Notes under the pieces: generated by a model
The model's database searches: none
Told to the model about the DNA's origin: nothing
What the model saw: only the letters and a program-made list of their open reading frames with translations
Assembly (NCBI GenBank): GCA_028277445.1
Contig: JANQGG010000054.1
Location: 62,001-126,000, forward strand
Length of the DNA stretch: 64,000 nt
Origin: Chloroherpetonaceae bacterium
GTDB lineage: Bacteria > Bacteroidota > Chlorobiia > Chlorobiales > Chloroherpetonaceae
Direction of reading: 5' to 3'
Part shown: positions 48,599 to 55,457 of the stretch, in pieces
Position numbering within the stretch: the stretch's first letter is position 1
How the letters are laid out: each line of letters opens with the position of its first letter
Made by a program: the position numbers and the translations under genes

Positions 48599-48838
48599 AT
48601 GGCAAAAGCTTCTGAAAAATCAAATAAAAAACCAAAACCCCAAGTTCATGTTCGCTTTACTCGCGTGTTATTAATTATTGCCGGCGTTGATCTGCTTTTA
48701 CTTTTTGCACCGGGTTTGGGTTTTTTACATTCCTTTTATTATATCGGGGATTTTATTTCATTTGGGGCATCGATTTTAGGGCTGGTGCTTATTTATTATG
48801 CATTTAAATCTCTTTATTACAAGAATGAAAAGAAATAA
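48599..48838 (+). CDS. Small membrane protein, function unknown
   Basis: The 79-residue protein has a lysine-rich N-terminus (about 1-22) and two hydrophobic helices (about 23-47 and 50-72) with a short polar turn and a basic tail. No family was recognised. It lies 69 bp upstream of moxR on the same strand, so it may be the first gene of the Bat operon or a separate small unit. Confidence 0.7.
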
Positions 48839-48907: not shown

Positions 48908-49906
48908 ATGGAAACAACACTCTCCATTGATGAATTAAATGCTAAGATTAAAGCCGAATCGATGTTTGTTGAAGACCTTCGGCAAGAAATGCGCAAAGTC
49001 ATCATCGGACAAGATTATGTGATCAATCGTTTATTGATTGGTCTTTTAACCAATGGCCATGTTTTGCTGGAAGGCGTACCCGGACTGGCCAAAACCTTAA
49101 CGGTTAGCTCGCTGGCCACAGCTATAAATTTGAAATTTCAACGCATGCAATTTACCCCCGATTTGCTTCCTGCCGATTTGATCGGGACATTGATCTACAA
49201 TCAAAAAGAAATGAAGTTTTATACCAAGAAAGGCCCGATTTTTGCCAACATTATCCTTGCCGATGAAATAAACAGATCGCCGGCCAAGGTTCAATCGGCG
49301 TTATTGGAAGCCATGCAGGAGCGTCAAGTGACAATCGGCGAAGAAACGTTCAAATTGGATGATCCTTTTTTGGTCCTATCCACCCAAAATCCTGTTGAGC
49401 AGGAGGGCACGTATCCTCTGCCGGAAGCACAGGTCGATCGGTTCATGATGAAACTCAAAGTGGATTATCCGAGCCGAACCGAGGAATTGGAAATTATGCG
49501 GCGGATGGCCAGCACCACAAAAACCCAATCCATTGAACCGTGCATTACGCGAGAGCAAATTTTAAATGCAAGAAAGGTTGTCAATGATGTTTATATGGAT
49601 CCGAAAGTTGAACAATACATTGTTGATATTGTGTTTGCAACACGCGAGCCTGAATCGGTTAATTTGAATGAGGTTAAATCGTTAATTGCCTATGGCGCAT
49701 CGCCTCGTGCAACCATCAATCTGAATCTGGCTGCAAAAGCGCATGCATTTTTAAGCCACAGAGGCTATACCACGCCCGAAGATGTTAAGACAATTGCCTA
49801 CGATGTATTGAGGCATAGAATTATACCGACATATGAAGCGGAAGCGCAGGAAATCCAAACCGAGGATTTGGTGCGGCAAATTTTAAATGCTGTGAATGTA
49901 CCGTGA
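48908..49906 (+). CDS. MoxR-family AAA ATPase, first gene of the Bat operon
   Basis: The 332-residue protein is a MoxR AAA+ ATPase with Walker A LEGVPGLAKTL (about 58-68), Walker B LADEINRSPAKVQSALLEAMQERQV and sensor STQNPVEQEGTYPLPEAQ. MoxR proteins act as chaperones for VWA-domain partners; here the partner genes (DUF58, batA, batB) follow. An AP2-domain gene is inserted after it, 59 bp downstream. Confidence 0.95.
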   Translation: METTLSIDELNAKIKAESMFVEDLRQEMRKVIIGQDYVINRLLIGLLTNGHVLLEGVPGLAKTLTVSSLATAINLKFQRMQFTPDLLPADLIGTLIYNQKEMKFYTKKGPIFANIILADEINRSPAKVQSALLEAMQERQVTIGEETFKLDDPFLVLSTQNPVEQEGTYPLPEAQVDRFMMKLKVDYPSRTEELEIMRRMASTTKTQSIEPCITREQILNARKVVNDVYMDPKVEQYIVDIVFATREPESVNLNEVKSLIAYGASPRATINLNLAAKAHAFLSHRGYTTPEDVKTIAYDVLRHRIIPTYEAEAQEIQTEDLVRQILNAVNVP

Positions 49907-49965: not shown

Positions 49966-50580
49966 ATGAGTAGTAAAAACAGACATTCAACAGATCAAAA
50001 TAATCAACCAAGGCATGCGCATAAGTCCCGCTACAAAGGTATTAGCAGAATAGATAGTATCAATACACATGGATGGTTTGTAAGGATATATCGTAACGAT
50101 GTGATTTATTCAAAGCTGTTTAGCGATACTCGCTACGAAAGTAAAGATGAAGCGCTAAAAGCAGCTCAAAACTATCGTGATGAGTTTGAGTCGTTAATGG
50201 ATAAAAAAAACAAACAGCCTAGACGAAACAACCGGCTACCTGTTGTAACCCAAAATAAACGTAATAAAACTGGCGTGGTTGGGGTATGTTATAGAAAACG
50301 AAAACTTCCAAGCGGGCGAATAGCGGAGTGTTATTCGGTAACTTGGGCGCCGGAGCCGAATGTTCAGAAATGCACCTCGTTTTCAATTACCAAATACGGT
50401 AAGCGCGAAGCCTTTCGCCGTGCAAAAGAGCTAAGGGCGAAAATGGTAAAATCAATGATGGGCGATACAGCGCTCCCAAAAACGAAAAAACGACCTAAAC
50501 GCCGAAAATATCAGAAGGCTGAAAAAGTTATGAAAAAGTTAAAGAGGAGTATCGAACACAAAAAAACGCTTGCTGCCTAA
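49966..50580 (+). CDS. Tandem AP2-like DNA-binding protein inside the Bat operon
   Basis: The 204-residue basic protein has two AP2/ERF-like modules. Module 1 is about residues 20-78 (SRYKGISR, GWFVRIYRNDVIYSKLF, SKDEALKAAQNYRDEF). Module 2 is about 95-165 (TGVVGVCYRKRK, CYSVTWAPEP, SFSITKYGKREAFRRA). The last 40 residues are Lys/Arg rich. AP2 domains are three-stranded beta sheets with a helix that bind DNA; in bacteria they usually accompany homing HNH nucleases, but no nuclease domain is present here. Its 59- and 24-bp gaps to moxR and the DUF58 gene indicate cotranscription. Function unknown; an operon regulator is one idea. Confidence 0.82.
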   Translation: MSSKNRHSTDQNNQPRHAHKSRYKGISRIDSINTHGWFVRIYRNDVIYSKLFSDTRYESKDEALKAAQNYRDEFESLMDKKNKQPRRNNRLPVVTQNKRNKTGVVGVCYRKRKLPSGRIAECYSVTWAPEPNVQKCTSFSITKYGKREAFRRAKELRAKMVKSMMGDTALPKTKKRPKRRKYQKAEKVMKKLKRSIEHKKTLAA

Positions 50581-50604: not shown

Positions 50605-51489
50605 ATGAACGAAAATGAAAACAAGTTGGTGTTTAATAAAATACGCCAGCTTGAAATCCGAACACGGGGAATTGTTAATAATATATTTGGCGGCGAATAC
50701 CATTCGGTTTTCAAGGGCAAAGGTATGGAGTTTGCCGAAGTTCGCGAGTATCAATACGGCGATGATGTTCGGGCCATTGATTGGAATGTTTCGGCGCGGC
50801 GCGATGATGTGTTCATCAAGGTCTTTGAAGAAGAGCGTGAGCAAACCCTCATGATCTTGTTTGACGGTTCGGGTTCGGGCGCATTTGGCTCTCAAAATCA
50901 ATTTAAGCGCGATCAGGCTGCCGAAATCTGTGCTACGCTTGCATTCAGCGCCATCAAGAACAACGACAAAGTTGGCTTGATGATCTTTACCGACCATGTG
51001 GAAAAATTTATCCCGCCACGCAAAGGCCGAAGTCATGTGCTGCGTATTCTTCGCGATATTTTTTATTTCAAGCCCAAAGGAAAGCGAACCAACATCAGTG
51101 CAGCCGTTGATATTGCAACGCGCGCATTAAAACGCCGGTCTATTGTATTTTTGGTGAGCGATTTGATGGATAAAAACTATGAAGATAAGCTGCAAATCAT
51201 CGCTAAAAAGCATGATTTTGTGGTGATCCATGTCACCGATCCGGGTGAGTATTCATTGCCCAAAGTCGGCTTGTTGCAATTGGAAGACGCCGAAACCGGC
51301 GAACCTTTGTTGGTGGATACGTTGGATGAAACATTTCAGCGCAGTTATAAAAAACGGATGGCTCAATATCATGCGTTCAAAGCCAATCAACTGCAAAAAA
51401 TGAAAATAGATATGGTGACGGTTTCTACCGCATCGTCATTTGTAAAACCTTTAACTAAGTTTTTTAAACAACGTGAAAAACGCTATTGA
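50605..51489 (+). CDS. DUF58 (VWA-like) protein of the Bat operon
   Basis: The 294-residue protein is a DUF58 member with signature FAEVREYQYGDDVRAIDWNVSARR and a VWA-like core with MIDAS-type DGSGSG (about 93). It is the usual gene after moxR in MoxR-VWA operons and likely a MoxR client. The next gene (GTG 51473) starts 17 bases inside it, indicating coupled translation. Confidence 0.92.
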   Translation: MNENENKLVFNKIRQLEIRTRGIVNNIFGGEYHSVFKGKGMEFAEVREYQYGDDVRAIDWNVSARRDDVFIKVFEEEREQTLMILFDGSGSGAFGSQNQFKRDQAAEICATLAFSAIKNNDKVGLMIFTDHVEKFIPPRKGRSHVLRILRDIFYFKPKGKRTNISAAVDIATRALKRRSIVFLVSDLMDKNYEDKLQIIAKKHDFVVIHVTDPGEYSLPKVGLLQLEDAETGEPLLVDTLDETFQRSYKKRMAQYHAFKANQLQKMKIDMVTVSTASSFVKPLTKFFKQREKRY

Positions 51490-52507
51490 GTTTTTGGATA
51501 TAAAACGCTTAAAACTTCTCTTTGGCGTGATGGTTGTGGCGCTTGGTTTAAACTGGAATATCAGCGCTGGTTGGGCCGAAGAGCCACGAGTTAGTGTTCG
51601 GATATCGCCGGATACCTGTACGATTGGAGATATTATTACGTACAAATTAAACGTGATTCGTCCTGCATCTTTTTCGGTAGCTTATCCAACCGAAAGCGAT
51701 ACCATTTTTTCGCCGTTTGAAATCACAGAAATCAAAAAACGTACGAAATCCAAAGATGACAATCTTGAAGTTGATGAGCTTGAATACAGCTTGATGGCCT
51801 TTCAAACCGGTGATTTACCGCTGCCGGCTATTGCATTAAATTACCTGGAAGATCGTCCCGATGCCGAAGCCAAGGTGGTTGAAGTGGGCGGAAAAATGAT
51901 CGTGGTTCAATCGGTTTTGGATTCGGCTTCGCAAGCCATGGAAGATATTAAACCCATAAAATCGGCGCCTTTTCCAATATGGCTGGCTTTGGCCGTTCTT
52001 GCCGGAATTGTGGTTATAGCGGGGTTGATCTATTGGGCCTATCACCGTCATAAAAATCGTCCCGAAATGCCTCAGCCGGTAGAGGAAAAAATTGTCCAAC
52101 CTTATGAGTGGGCGTTGGAAAAGCTTTCGTCCTTAAAAAGTTTTGAGTTAAACGATCAATTGTCTTATAAGACATATTATACTGAGCTTAGTGATATTTT
52201 ACGGGAGTTTATAGAGATTTATTATCGCACACCGGCCCATGAGCAATTGACGTTTGAAATTTTGCAGGCGTTACATCATAAAACCGGATCGGAACAGGTT
52301 GAAAAAATTAAGGGCGTTCTTCAAACATCCGATATGGTTAAATTTGCCAAGTATTTTCCGTCAAAAATTGAAGCCCAAAAAAGCTTGGAGCTAGCATTTG
52401 CTACCATAGAGATTGCAAAACCGATCTCAGAAGAACAAAATACGTCTAACGGTCAGGCCAAATCGGAACAAGGTGAGGCGGCTTTGCCAAACGAGAGTAA
52501 ACCATAG
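51473..52507 (+). CDS. Membrane protein of the Bat operon, BatD/DUF4381-like
   Basis: The 344-residue protein has an N-terminal signal anchor, a beta-rich extracytoplasmic part (about 35-165, RVSVRISPDTCTIGDIITYK), a transmembrane helix (about 167-187, FPIWLALAVLAGIVVIAGLI), and a cytoplasmic helical part rich in charged residues ending in a polar tail. Its position between DUF58 and batA is that of the accessory protein in Bacteroidetes Bat operons. The start is GTG at 51473. Confidence 0.8.
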   Translation: MKNAIEFLDIKRLKLLFGVMVVALGLNWNISAGWAEEPRVSVRISPDTCTIGDIITYKLNVIRPASFSVAYPTESDTIFSPFEITEIKKRTKSKDDNLEVDELEYSLMAFQTGDLPLPAIALNYLEDRPDAEAKVVEVGGKMIVVQSVLDSASQAMEDIKPIKSAPFPIWLALAVLAGIVVIAGLIYWAYHRHKNRPEMPQPVEEKIVQPYEWALEKLSSLKSFELNDQLSYKTYYTELSDILREFIEIYYRTPAHEQLTFEILQALHHKTGSEQVEKIKGVLQTSDMVKFAKYFPSKIEAQKSLELAFATIEIAKPISEEQNTSNGQAKSEQGEAALPNESKP

Positions 52508-52516
52508 ACCACTGCC

Positions 52517-53539
52517 ATGTACGAGGTTCTTATAGCGCCAAACTTTTCCTTTGAAAACCCGGAATACCTGTTTTTACTGGCTTTGATTCCAATACTTGCG
52601 ATTTATTATCTTTTTAAAGAACGTTTTGGAAAAACCGCACCCTATGTTTTTGCCAACATTTCGCATGTCAAAGAAACCCGAAAGCAAAAAGTCCATAAGT
52701 TTCGCCATAGCATTATAGTACTTCGTCTGCTGGCGATAACCTGCCTGATTTTAGCATTTGCCAGACCCCGCTTGGAAAATGAATATCAAAAGGTATTTGC
52801 CGATGGCATCGATATTGTGCTTGCCATCGACCTTTCCGGATCGATGCTTGCCGAGGATTTTGATCCAAAAAACCGCATTAATGCCGCAAAAACCGTGGCC
52901 AGAGATTTTATTGATCAACGCGTAAGCGATCGTATCGGGTTGGTGGTTTTTAGCGGAAAGTCATTTACGCAATGCCCATTAACGCTGGACTACCAGCTTT
53001 TGCATCGTTTGATTGAAGAGCTTGAAGCTGGAAATATTGAAGAAGAAGGCACTGCCATTGGAACGGCGATTGCCACGGCAACCAACCGATTGCGCGACTC
53101 GAATGCCAAAAGTAAAGTGGTGGTGCTTTTAACGGATGGGCAAAACAATGCCGGCGAAATAGAGCCGGTAACTGCCGCTGAACTTGCCTCCGCATTGGGC
53201 ATTAAAATCTACACGATAGGTGCAGGAACAAGGGGATACGCCCGTTATCCGATACAGGATCGGCTTTTCGGAAAACGCTATGTACAAATTAAAGTTGATG
53301 TGGATGATTCCACGCTGACAAAAATCGCCGACATTACCGGGGCGAAGTATTTTCGAGCGACCGATATGGAAAGCCTGAAAAAAACCTATCGTGAAATTGA
53401 TGAACTTGAAAAAACCAAGGTTGAAGTTGAAAAATACACCGATTACCAGGAAAAGTTTGCGGTCTTCTTAATGCCGGCGCTCATCCTTTTGGGGCTGGAA
53501 GTTTTGCTGGCGCACACCCGGTTTCGAAAAGTCCCATAA
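52517..53539 (+). CDS. batA: BatA, VWA-domain membrane protein
   Basis: The 340-residue protein has two N-terminal membrane helices (about 10-30 and 65-82), a VWA domain with the metal-ion site DLSGSM (about 103, AIDLSGSMLAEDFDP), TDGQ motif (LLTDGQNNAG), and a C-terminal membrane helix (about 315-335). BatA is part of the Bat complex, linked in Bacteroides fragilis to oxygen tolerance. It is separated from batB by a 108-bp gap with a short hairpin. Confidence 0.92.
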   Translation: MYEVLIAPNFSFENPEYLFLLALIPILAIYYLFKERFGKTAPYVFANISHVKETRKQKVHKFRHSIIVLRLLAITCLILAFARPRLENEYQKVFADGIDIVLAIDLSGSMLAEDFDPKNRINAAKTVARDFIDQRVSDRIGLVVFSGKSFTQCPLTLDYQLLHRLIEELEAGNIEEEGTAIGTAIATATNRLRDSNAKSKVVVLLTDGQNNAGEIEPVTAAELASALGIKIYTIGAGTRGYARYPIQDRLFGKRYVQIKVDVDDSTLTKIADITGAKYFRATDMESLKKTYREIDELEKTKVEVEKYTDYQEKFAVFLMPALILLGLEVLLAHTRFRKVP

Positions 53540-53647: not shown

Positions 53648-54688
53648 ATGAAGTTTGGTTATCCCGATCATTTAATCTATCTCACGATTCTTTTGCCTCT
53701 GGCCATTCTTTTTGCCTTTGCATTGCATAGACGGTTTAAGGACATCAGGCAATTGGGAGATTTGGGGCTTGTGGGCAAGCTGATACCGACATTCAGTAAG
53801 GGTAAGGTGATGTGGAAATCGGTATTACTGTTTTTAGCATTTTCCTCGGTTTTGTTTGCGTATGCAGCGCCTCAAATTGGCTCACGGTTAAAAGAAGTGA
53901 AACGAAAAGGGATTGAAATTGTAATTGCCCTGGATATTTCCAACAGTATGCTTGCCGACGATATTAAACCCAGCCGGCTTCAAAAAGCAAAATACACAAT
54001 TTCAAAACTGGTCGATAATCTGGGTAACGATCGGGTAGGGTTGGTGGCTTTTGCCGGCCAGTCGTTTCTTCAATGCCCCATGACCTCCGATAAAAGCGCG
54101 TTAAAAATGTATCTGGATGTGATCAGCACAAAAGATATCGCCACACAAGGCACAAATTTTTCATCAGCCATAAATCAATCTTTGAAGGCGATTAAAAGCA
54201 TTGAAAAAGGCGCCAACGCCGAAGAAAAAAATCAAACCCGAAACAAAGTGATCGTAATTTTTAGCGATGGCGAAGATCATGAGGCGGGTATTGAAACAAT
54301 TCTCCAAAAAGCCTTGGAGCAACAGGTTCGGATTTATACGGTTGGCGTTGGTTCGGATAAGCCAACGCCAATTCCGATTCGCGATGAGTACGGGCGACAG
54401 ATTGATTTTAAACGTGATAAACAAAGTAGCATTGTAACAACAAAGTTTCAAGAACCCTTGTTGCGCAAAATTGCCGGTGAAACCAATGGGTTTTTTTATC
54501 GAATTACACCTCAAAGCAAAATTTACGACCAGATCGTAAATGACATTAATGACCTCGAAAAGAAGGAACTGGCAACAAAAGAGATCATGGATTACGACCA
54601 TCAATTTCAGTTTTTTCTGGCTCTGGCCCTTTGCTTTTTGGTTTTGGAAACGCTCTTAACCGATCGAAAGCGATTAAAGAATGACTGA
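53648..54688 (+). CDS. batB: BatB, VWA-domain membrane protein
   Basis: The 346-residue paralogue of BatA has an N-terminal helix pair, a VWA domain with MIDAS ALDISNSMLADD (about 94-107; Asn instead of Gly in DxSxS), SDGEDHEAG, and a C-terminal membrane helix (about 320-340). BatA and BatB are thought to form VWA scaffolds served by MoxR. It overlaps batC by eight bases. Confidence 0.93.
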   Translation: MKFGYPDHLIYLTILLPLAILFAFALHRRFKDIRQLGDLGLVGKLIPTFSKGKVMWKSVLLFLAFSSVLFAYAAPQIGSRLKEVKRKGIEIVIALDISNSMLADDIKPSRLQKAKYTISKLVDNLGNDRVGLVAFAGQSFLQCPMTSDKSALKMYLDVISTKDIATQGTNFSSAINQSLKAIKSIEKGANAEEKNQTRNKVIVIFSDGEDHEAGIETILQKALEQQVRIYTVGVGSDKPTPIPIRDEYGRQIDFKRDKQSSIVTTKFQEPLLRKIAGETNGFFYRITPQSKIYDQIVNDINDLEKKELATKEIMDYDHQFQFFLALALCFLVLETLLTDRKRLKND

Positions 54689-55457
54689 GCTAACGAACAT
54701 ATTCCGCTTGATGTTGATGGGGTGGCTGCTTCTGGTCACCGGCTTTATACAAAGCGCGCAAGCCCAATTTTTTGATATCAGGAGCGGCAACCAGGCTTAC
54801 GAAGAAGAAAAATTCTCGGAAGCCCAGGAGCATTACTCAAAAGTTCTAAATTCGGAAGAAAAAATTAAGGCTAAAAAGGAAGCGTTATTTAATAAAGGTA
54901 ATGCCGCTTATCGCCAGGAAAATTATAGCGAGGCCCAACAAGCCTTTGAGCAGTTAGCTGTAAATACGGATTTGGAAAACTCATTGCGATCTGAAGCGTT
55001 TTACAACACTGGAAATGCCATCGCTAAACAAGCTGAAAACATAACCAATCCCGGCGAAAAACTTCCAAAATTAGAGCAAGCGTTGGATCAATACAAGCAA
55101 GCGCTGAAATTAAATCCCGGCGATGTTCAGGCGAAACAAAATTTTGAACTTGTAAGCAACCAAATTAACGCGCTTAAAAAGCAGCAGCAAAATCAAGATC
55201 AAGAAAATAAGCAGGAAGAAAAGAAAGAAGAGAAAAAACAGGAGCAGAAAGAGGAACAAAAGCAGCAACAAGAGCAACAGCAGCAAGAACAAAAGCAGGA
55301 AAAGACAGAAGAAAATAAGCCACAACCCAAACCAAATAATTTTTCAAAAGAGCAAGCCGAGCGTATTTTGAATGCGCTTAAGCAGGATGAAAAACAAATG
55401 CTAAAAAAGTATCAACAAAAGCCGTCATCATCCGTGAAATTTGAAAAAGATTGGTAA
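54681..55457 (+). CDS. batC: BatC, TPR protein with Gln/Glu/Lys-rich segment
   Basis: The 258-residue protein has a signal peptide (about 1-30), two to three TPR motifs (about 35-160: QAYEEEKFSEAQEHYSKVLN, KGNAAYRQENYSEAQQAFEQ), then a strongly biased Gln/Glu/Lys segment (about 165-215) and a short C-terminal helix (EQAERILNALKQDEKQMLKK). BatC is the periplasmic TPR member of the Bat system. The low-complexity segment is purine-rich DNA and will produce spurious reverse-strand ORFs. Confidence 0.9.
   Translation: MTELTNIFRLMLMGWLLLVTGFIQSAQAQFFDIRSGNQAYEEEKFSEAQEHYSKVLNSEEKIKAKKEALFNKGNAAYRQENYSEAQQAFEQLAVNTDLENSLRSEAFYNTGNAIAKQAENITNPGEKLPKLEQALDQYKQALKLNPGDVQAKQNFELVSNQINALKKQQQNQDQENKQEEKKEEKKQEQKEEQKQQQEQQQQEQKQEKTEENKPQPKPNNFSKEQAERILNALKQDEKQMLKKYQQKPSSSVKFEKDW

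Follow-up and report, generated by a model that had tools for sequence, protein, structure and literature searches.

The window, i.e., the whole stretch of 64,000 nucleotides that was analyzed, carries between a moxR gene and a DUF58 gene an open reading frame at positions 49966–50580 of the forward strand, which begins with ATG and encodes a tandem AP2 protein of 204 amino acids (hereafter AP2x2). The moxR gene ends at position 49906, 59 bp ahead of AP2x2, and another 24 bp lead from AP2x2 to the DUF58 start at position 50605; both spacings had been given exactly so in a preliminary description of this DNA. The features of the region are listed below, where the BatB-like and BatC-like genes are assigned from position and translation.

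48599–48838, forward strand: gene for a 79-aa hydrophobic (probable membrane) protein, upstream of moxR
48908–49906, forward strand: moxR (AAA_3 + AAA_lid_2), the constant partner of AP2x2 in six genomes
49966–50580, forward strand: tandem AP2 protein gene (AP2x2), 204 aa, pI 10.6
50029–50211, forward strand: predicted AP2 module 1, residues about 22–82, GISRID...THGWFVR...YSKLFSD type, placed by the structure model and invariant residues
50266–50463, forward strand: predicted AP2 module 2, residues about 101–166, NKTGVVGV...SFSITKYGKREAFRRA type, placed by Pfam, the structure model, and homology to phage HNH-AP2 proteins
50464–50577, forward strand: basic C-terminal tail, residues 167–204, with a helix predicted at moderate confidence for 185–203
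50605–51489, forward strand: DUF58 (VWA-like) gene
51473–52507, forward strand: BatD-like/DUF4381 protein gene
52517–53539, forward strand: BatA (VWA + BatA N-terminal)
53648–54688, forward strand: BatB-like VWA protein gene
54681–55457, forward strand: TPR protein (BatC-like) gene

The divergent tsaD gene is separated from the first gene of the operon by 37 bp in the window and, in several relatives, some of them lacking AP2x2, by about 17–27 bp; a dedicated operator upstream would have little space there. No 10-mer is common to the regions upstream of moxR in the window and in the related genome G001, a comparison that is uninformative for a shared operator, and scans for promoters and terminators returned no more than was found in shuffled sequences. 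The GC content of AP2x2 (40.5%) is close to that of its neighbors, with a lower GC3, and no integrase, transposase, or HNH gene was recognized among the flanking genes read; on these grounds, a recent foreign acquisition was rejected. A defense system was likewise ruled out, as PADLOC gave no match. The 79-aa protein has no Pfam match; small ORFs resembling it precede moxR in several Chlorobi relatives, some of which have no AP2x2 there.

AP2-type DNA-binding domains are best known from plants and malaria parasites. The Pfam AP2 profile (PF00847) matches the whole AP2x2 protein with an E-value of 1.9e-9 and 38.1 bits, against a curated cut-off of 33.3, and at a loose limit (E up to 1) it matches two stretches. 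Module 2 (Pfam residues 103–162) is the strong module and carries most of the score; module 1 alone falls below the threshold and is supported by the structure model, by a similar module fused to a deaminase, and by its profile similarity to phage AP2 domains. The two modules match one another weakly in hhalign. The Pfam scan of the protein found neither HNH nor any domain besides AP2. With a pI of 10.6 and a charge of about +36, the protein resembles nearly all of its homologues, which are basic as well; acidic relatives also exist (L088 and L113, pI 5.1).

An AlphaFold2 model built on a 15-sequence alignment shows the succession strand-strand-strand-helix twice (26–82 and 104–165), with block pLDDT mostly of 80–96. 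Module 1 is modeled with strands at 26–30, 35–43, and 46–53 and a helix at 60–82 (block pLDDT 80–95), and module 2 with strands at 104–113, 119–130, and 133–140 and a helix at 146–165; confidence is low at the N-terminus, in the first part of the linker (82–92), and for residues 168–180. With its pTM of 0.41, the model does not predict how the modules are placed relative to each other; the overall TM-scores of the PDB matches are low, which is what an unfixed placement would lead one to expect. In a Foldseek search against the PDB, the first match was the DNA complex of the tandem-AP2 protein PfSIP2 (6sy0; E 4.6e-4, probability 1.00), followed by mitoribosomal ApiAP2 proteins of Toxoplasma. 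A sequence-profile search likewise ranked PfSIP2 first with a weak E-value of 0.014, and both of its AP2 domains align weakly with module 2. The protein is therefore predicted to consist of two AP2-fold modules. The preliminary description had read two AP2-like modules, a basic tail, and no nuclease domain from the sequence and had proposed structure prediction as a check; these observations are borne out, and the AP2 fold is predicted in both modules. Across 10 Chlorobi members, residues R28, D30, H35, W37, R40, K50, F52, and D54 of module 1 are invariant. In strands 2 and 3, the invariant R40 and K50, which presumably match the known contact positions of plant AP2 domains, alternate with hydrophobic residues, as expected of a DNA-facing sheet.

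AP2x2 is a genuine gene, and purifying selection acts on it. Pairwise dN/dS is 0.13–0.15 among three genomes of g6 and 0.08–0.15 among three genomes of g3; between the window and G001, dS is saturated and pN is 0.27. The gene evolves faster than moxR, yet it is clearly constrained.

Comparison across Chlorobi showed that moxR and AP2x2 are adjacent in six genomes belonging to four genera and two families (G000, G001, G005, G007, G013, and G019), namely the window genome and G001 in one family and G005, G013, and G019 (g6) together with G007 (g7) in the second, with gaps of 18–206 bp. In G013 and G019, AP2x2 and DUF58 are 2 bp apart or overlap by 4 bp, which suggests a single transcript. The DUF58 gene has been relocated in G001, together with BatD, and in G005, and moxR and AP2x2 are still paired in both; the stable unit is thus moxR-AP2x2, and the tie is to moxR and not to the Bat genes. 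The earlier tie of the gene to the MoxR-VWA (Bat) operon is modified accordingly to a link with moxR. In G002, G009, G011, and the Chlorobiaceae-type genomes G004 and G008 (family f4), moxR is followed by DUF58 with no AP2x2 between them. Since Chlorobiaceae and some sister genera possess the moxR-Bat operon without it, AP2x2 is an accessory of the operon and not one of its invariable core components. None of the 87 genomes searched in families f3 and f4 has an AP2x2 match, and two other genera, g3 and g9, have a diverged copy away from moxR on long branches (1.35 and 1.49, respectively). Outside Chlorobi, no moxR was found near AP2x2 in 50 locus entries, a few of which were fetched twice, and batA/batB lie about 4 kb from AP2x2 in one of them, which rules out moxR linkage as a general rule. 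The linkage is lineage-specific. The stand-alone gene had been suspected to be non-randomly placed, with its occurrence elsewhere in relatives taken as a sign of chance; AP2x2 does lie elsewhere in other clades, but its position is conserved within the moxR-linked lineages, for which the adjacency in six genomes rules out chance.

We propose, with a confidence that is about evenly balanced, that AP2x2 is an inherited, stand-alone tandem-AP2 regulator that binds DNA sequence-specifically at two half-sites and is made together with MoxR. The three-stranded sheet of each module would face the major groove of double-stranded DNA, and the two modules, with a short flexible linker between them, would probably read a bipartite site in a PfSIP2-like manner, the very basic tail supplying additional non-specific affinity. 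Probably, moxR and AP2x2 are on one transcript in Chloroherpetonaceae and in part of the Thermochlorobacter family, and the level of the regulator would track that of MoxR. DNA rather than RNA as the ligand, regulation, co-transcription with moxR, and a functional link to MoxR are what we infer from this material; the data that bear on binding to double-stranded DNA are charge and conservation. The proposal is favored by the Pfam AP2 match, the confidently modeled modules, PfSIP2 as the top structure, the basic pI, the invariant polar residues of the sheet region (R28, D30, H35, R40, K50, and D54), dN/dS of about 0.1, and a moxR-AP2x2 pairing that is kept even where DUF58 has moved. Against it stand the weak sequence match to PfSIP2, the pTM value, the cramped tsaD-operon spacing, and the lack of a 10-mer common to the window and G001. 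A precedent is the phage-satellite repressor CapR, which evolved from the DNA-binding domain of a homing nuclease (PMC10448857). The operon does not reveal the targets of AP2x2, since the Bat genes are without a settled function; in Leptospira biflexa, no oxidative-stress phenotype followed when they were deleted (PMC3557215).

The persistence of AP2x2 beside moxR after the departure of DUF58, along with the long branches of the g3 and g9 copies located away from moxR, could also be explained if AP2x2 were a substrate or partner of MoxR, in which case MoxR and a VWA protein would remodel the AP2x2-DNA complex and couple the envelope or stress state to expression. The support for such a role is gene order; several moxR genes of the order have no AP2x2 neighbor, and AP2x2 outside Chlorobi has no moxR neighbor, so that we regard it as quite improbable.

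At the moxR-DUF58 junction of G017 (L144, 3776–4491, reverse strand) and G015 (L145, 7489–7788, reverse strand), other small genes occur, including one for a protein of about 100 aa; the G017 junction also encodes a 138-aa protein with an aspartyl-protease-like DTG motif, and neither gene of the G017 pair has a Pfam match. The junction thus seems open to insertion.

Regarding ancestry, viral contigs encode proteins with an N-terminal HNH_3 domain and a single AP2 domain, and in hhalign the viral HNH_3-AP2 domain matches module 2 with E 5e-19 and module 1 with 9e-8 (pairwise E-values). Judged by sequence, module 2 and the AP2 domain of the HNH homing nucleases of phages are homologous, and AP2x2 therefore likely descends from such elements, although anciently. 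The preliminary description had considered a domesticated homing-element remnant without its HNH domain; a decaying or domesticated remnant of a homing nuclease that entered at the moxR-DUF58 junction and had its HNH domain lost there is a different matter. The module 2 homology, the other small genes at the G015 and G017 junctions, and one Bacteroidota relative that combines AP2x2 with HNH are in keeping with it. However, among 47 members scanned, of which 39 match Pfam AP2, 46 are without HNH, which makes the loss family-wide and old, and dN/dS is about 0.1. Neither the 59-bp nor the 24-bp flank offers room for remains of an HNH domain, the phage nucleases have one AP2 after the HNH and not two, and the Bacteroidota fusion carries a C-terminal HNH that resembles type IV restriction enzymes. 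The remnant is thus the weakest of the rivals and very improbable: the ancient ancestry stands, nothing suggests HNH loss at this locus, and a recent loss is ruled out by the HNH-less relatives and the short flanks. Among the 47 members scanned, the suggested search for HNH-bearing relatives yielded this single fusion (L109, 5587–6534, reverse strand), a tandem AP2 protein that, from its sequence, may possibly be a restriction nuclease with AP2 modules as its DNA reader.

The family to which AP2x2 belongs is broad, mostly nuclease-free, and chromosomal, extending over Bacteroidota, SAR324, Verrucomicrobia, Proteobacteria, and Acidobacteria. A 10-sequence profile matched 43 of 393 genomes of the phylum-level group, and further matches were found in a SAR324 genome (10 copies), two Puniceicoccales, Propionivibrio, Filomicrobium, and an Acidobacteria genome; searches of phages and plasmids gave no match covering 80% of the protein. 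The tree is compatible with a single Chlorobi AP2x2 clade without proving one, and the AU test does not separate a clade of all moxR-linked copies from one of all Chlorobi copies or one of Chloroherpetonaceae with SAR324.

The gene is usually single-copy per genome in contexts that differ between clades, as would suit a general factor, and this change of context also fits a global role. Together with the small size, the charge of about +36, the pI of 10.6, and the lysine-rich tails of moxR-linked homologues, it raises the alternative of a nucleoid-associated protein that would use its tail and both AP2 modules to coat or bend DNA without much sequence specificity, the moxR linkage setting its dose only. 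Such a protein is hard to reconcile with the invariant polar residues of the sheet region, with a best structural match to a sequence-specific tandem AP2 protein, with the acidic relatives, or with ten divergent copies in one SAR324 genome, most of them beside a recurring gene set; we consider it unlikely, though worth keeping in view. In that genome (G414; L026 and L096–L103), a small HTH protein is encoded close by in six of the nine copies inspected and a ProX-like binding protein near six of the nine, often with a sensor-like protein and GNAT genes as well, forming a repeated gene set. By analogy, copies beside HTH and ProX-like genes are placed as local regulators often are.

The mitoribosomal matches that follow PfSIP2 raise the further alternative that AP2x2 binds rRNA or mRNA, for example in translation or RNA processing. 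A tandem-ApiAP2 subunit is described in the mitoribosome paper (PMC11742926), and several relatives lie, as read by eye, near a DEAD-box helicase, a pseudouridine synthase-like gene, or other RNA or translation genes. However, according to the same paper, it is chiefly extensions of the Toxoplasma proteins that touch rRNA, not the canonical AP2 surface (PMC11742926), and HNH-fused relatives presumably act on DNA. RNA binding is accordingly judged improbable.

The proposed regulator can be compared with several known systems. PfSIP2 (ApiAP2, 6sy0) shares the two tandem AP2 modules and is the best solved structure match, its profile aligning module 2 with both of its AP2 domains, whereas AP2x2 is bacterial, has 204 aa and no other domains, resembles it weakly in sequence, has a poorer-matching N-terminal module of the GISRID-THGW type, and is predicted, by comparison, to bind DNA. 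The HNH-AP2 homing endonucleases of phages, cyanobacteria, and protists (IPA-HNH type, PMC10448857) are related through the viral C-terminal AP2 domain, to which module 2 is homologous; in contrast to them, AP2x2 has no HNH in the same protein, carries two AP2 modules, and is under purifying selection between chromosomal housekeeping genes, with a position conserved within lineages instead of a mobile, phage- or plasmid-borne, patchy insertion. With plant AP2/ERF transcription factors, it has the AP2 fold and PF00847 in common, but it is a bacterial sequence subtype, akin at the level of the AP2 superfamily only. Also comparable are stand-alone bacterial proteins annotated as AP2 domain-containing (for example, Desulfocapsa and Rhizobium plasmid entries), which match both modules over about 60–70% of the query and, unlike AP2x2, have no moxR link as far as seen.

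Annotations of bacterial AP2 proteins in which no nuclease is noted already exist, and neither the fold nor the domain is new. What appears to be new is the conservation of the pairing with moxR, along with how broad the tandem nuclease-free family is. No functional study of stand-alone bacterial AP2 proteins was found in the open-licence papers searched. According to work cited in PMC10448857, the AP2 transcription factors of plants probably arose from homing-nuclease AP2 domains of bacteria or phages. A broad bacterial family with two AP2 modules and no nuclease, kept by purifying selection, would demonstrate that this same domain was put to cellular use by bacteria. That the uncharacterized tandem-AP2 family consists of bacterial sequence-specific transcription factors, with the Chlorobi member a dedicated regulator or client of the MoxR AAA+ machine, is a distinctly unlikely reading of greater reach; if true, a chaperone ATPase would control a DNA-binding protein encoded next door. 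The cellular clients of MoxR are, to our knowledge, poorly known, and the conserved moxR-AP2x2 pairing offers a concrete handle on it.

Two further architectures were observed. In G344 (L114, 4588–6651, reverse strand), a 687-aa protein with no Pfam match resembles AP2x2 in a stretch near its N-terminus and apparently contains further repeats. In both genomes of the window's family, a cytidine deaminase (L023, 5479–6135, reverse strand, on contig C55 of the window genome; L024, 5237–5920, reverse strand, in G001) carries an AP2 domain of the module 1 type at its N-terminus, the gene lying directly upstream of thymidine kinase and the active-site motifs CAE and CGAC looking intact. The fused module of the window genome is 44% identical to module 1 and matches Pfam AP2 at E 1.4e-4 without reaching the curated cut-off. 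It is unusual for a nucleoside-salvage enzyme to carry a module that binds nucleic acid.
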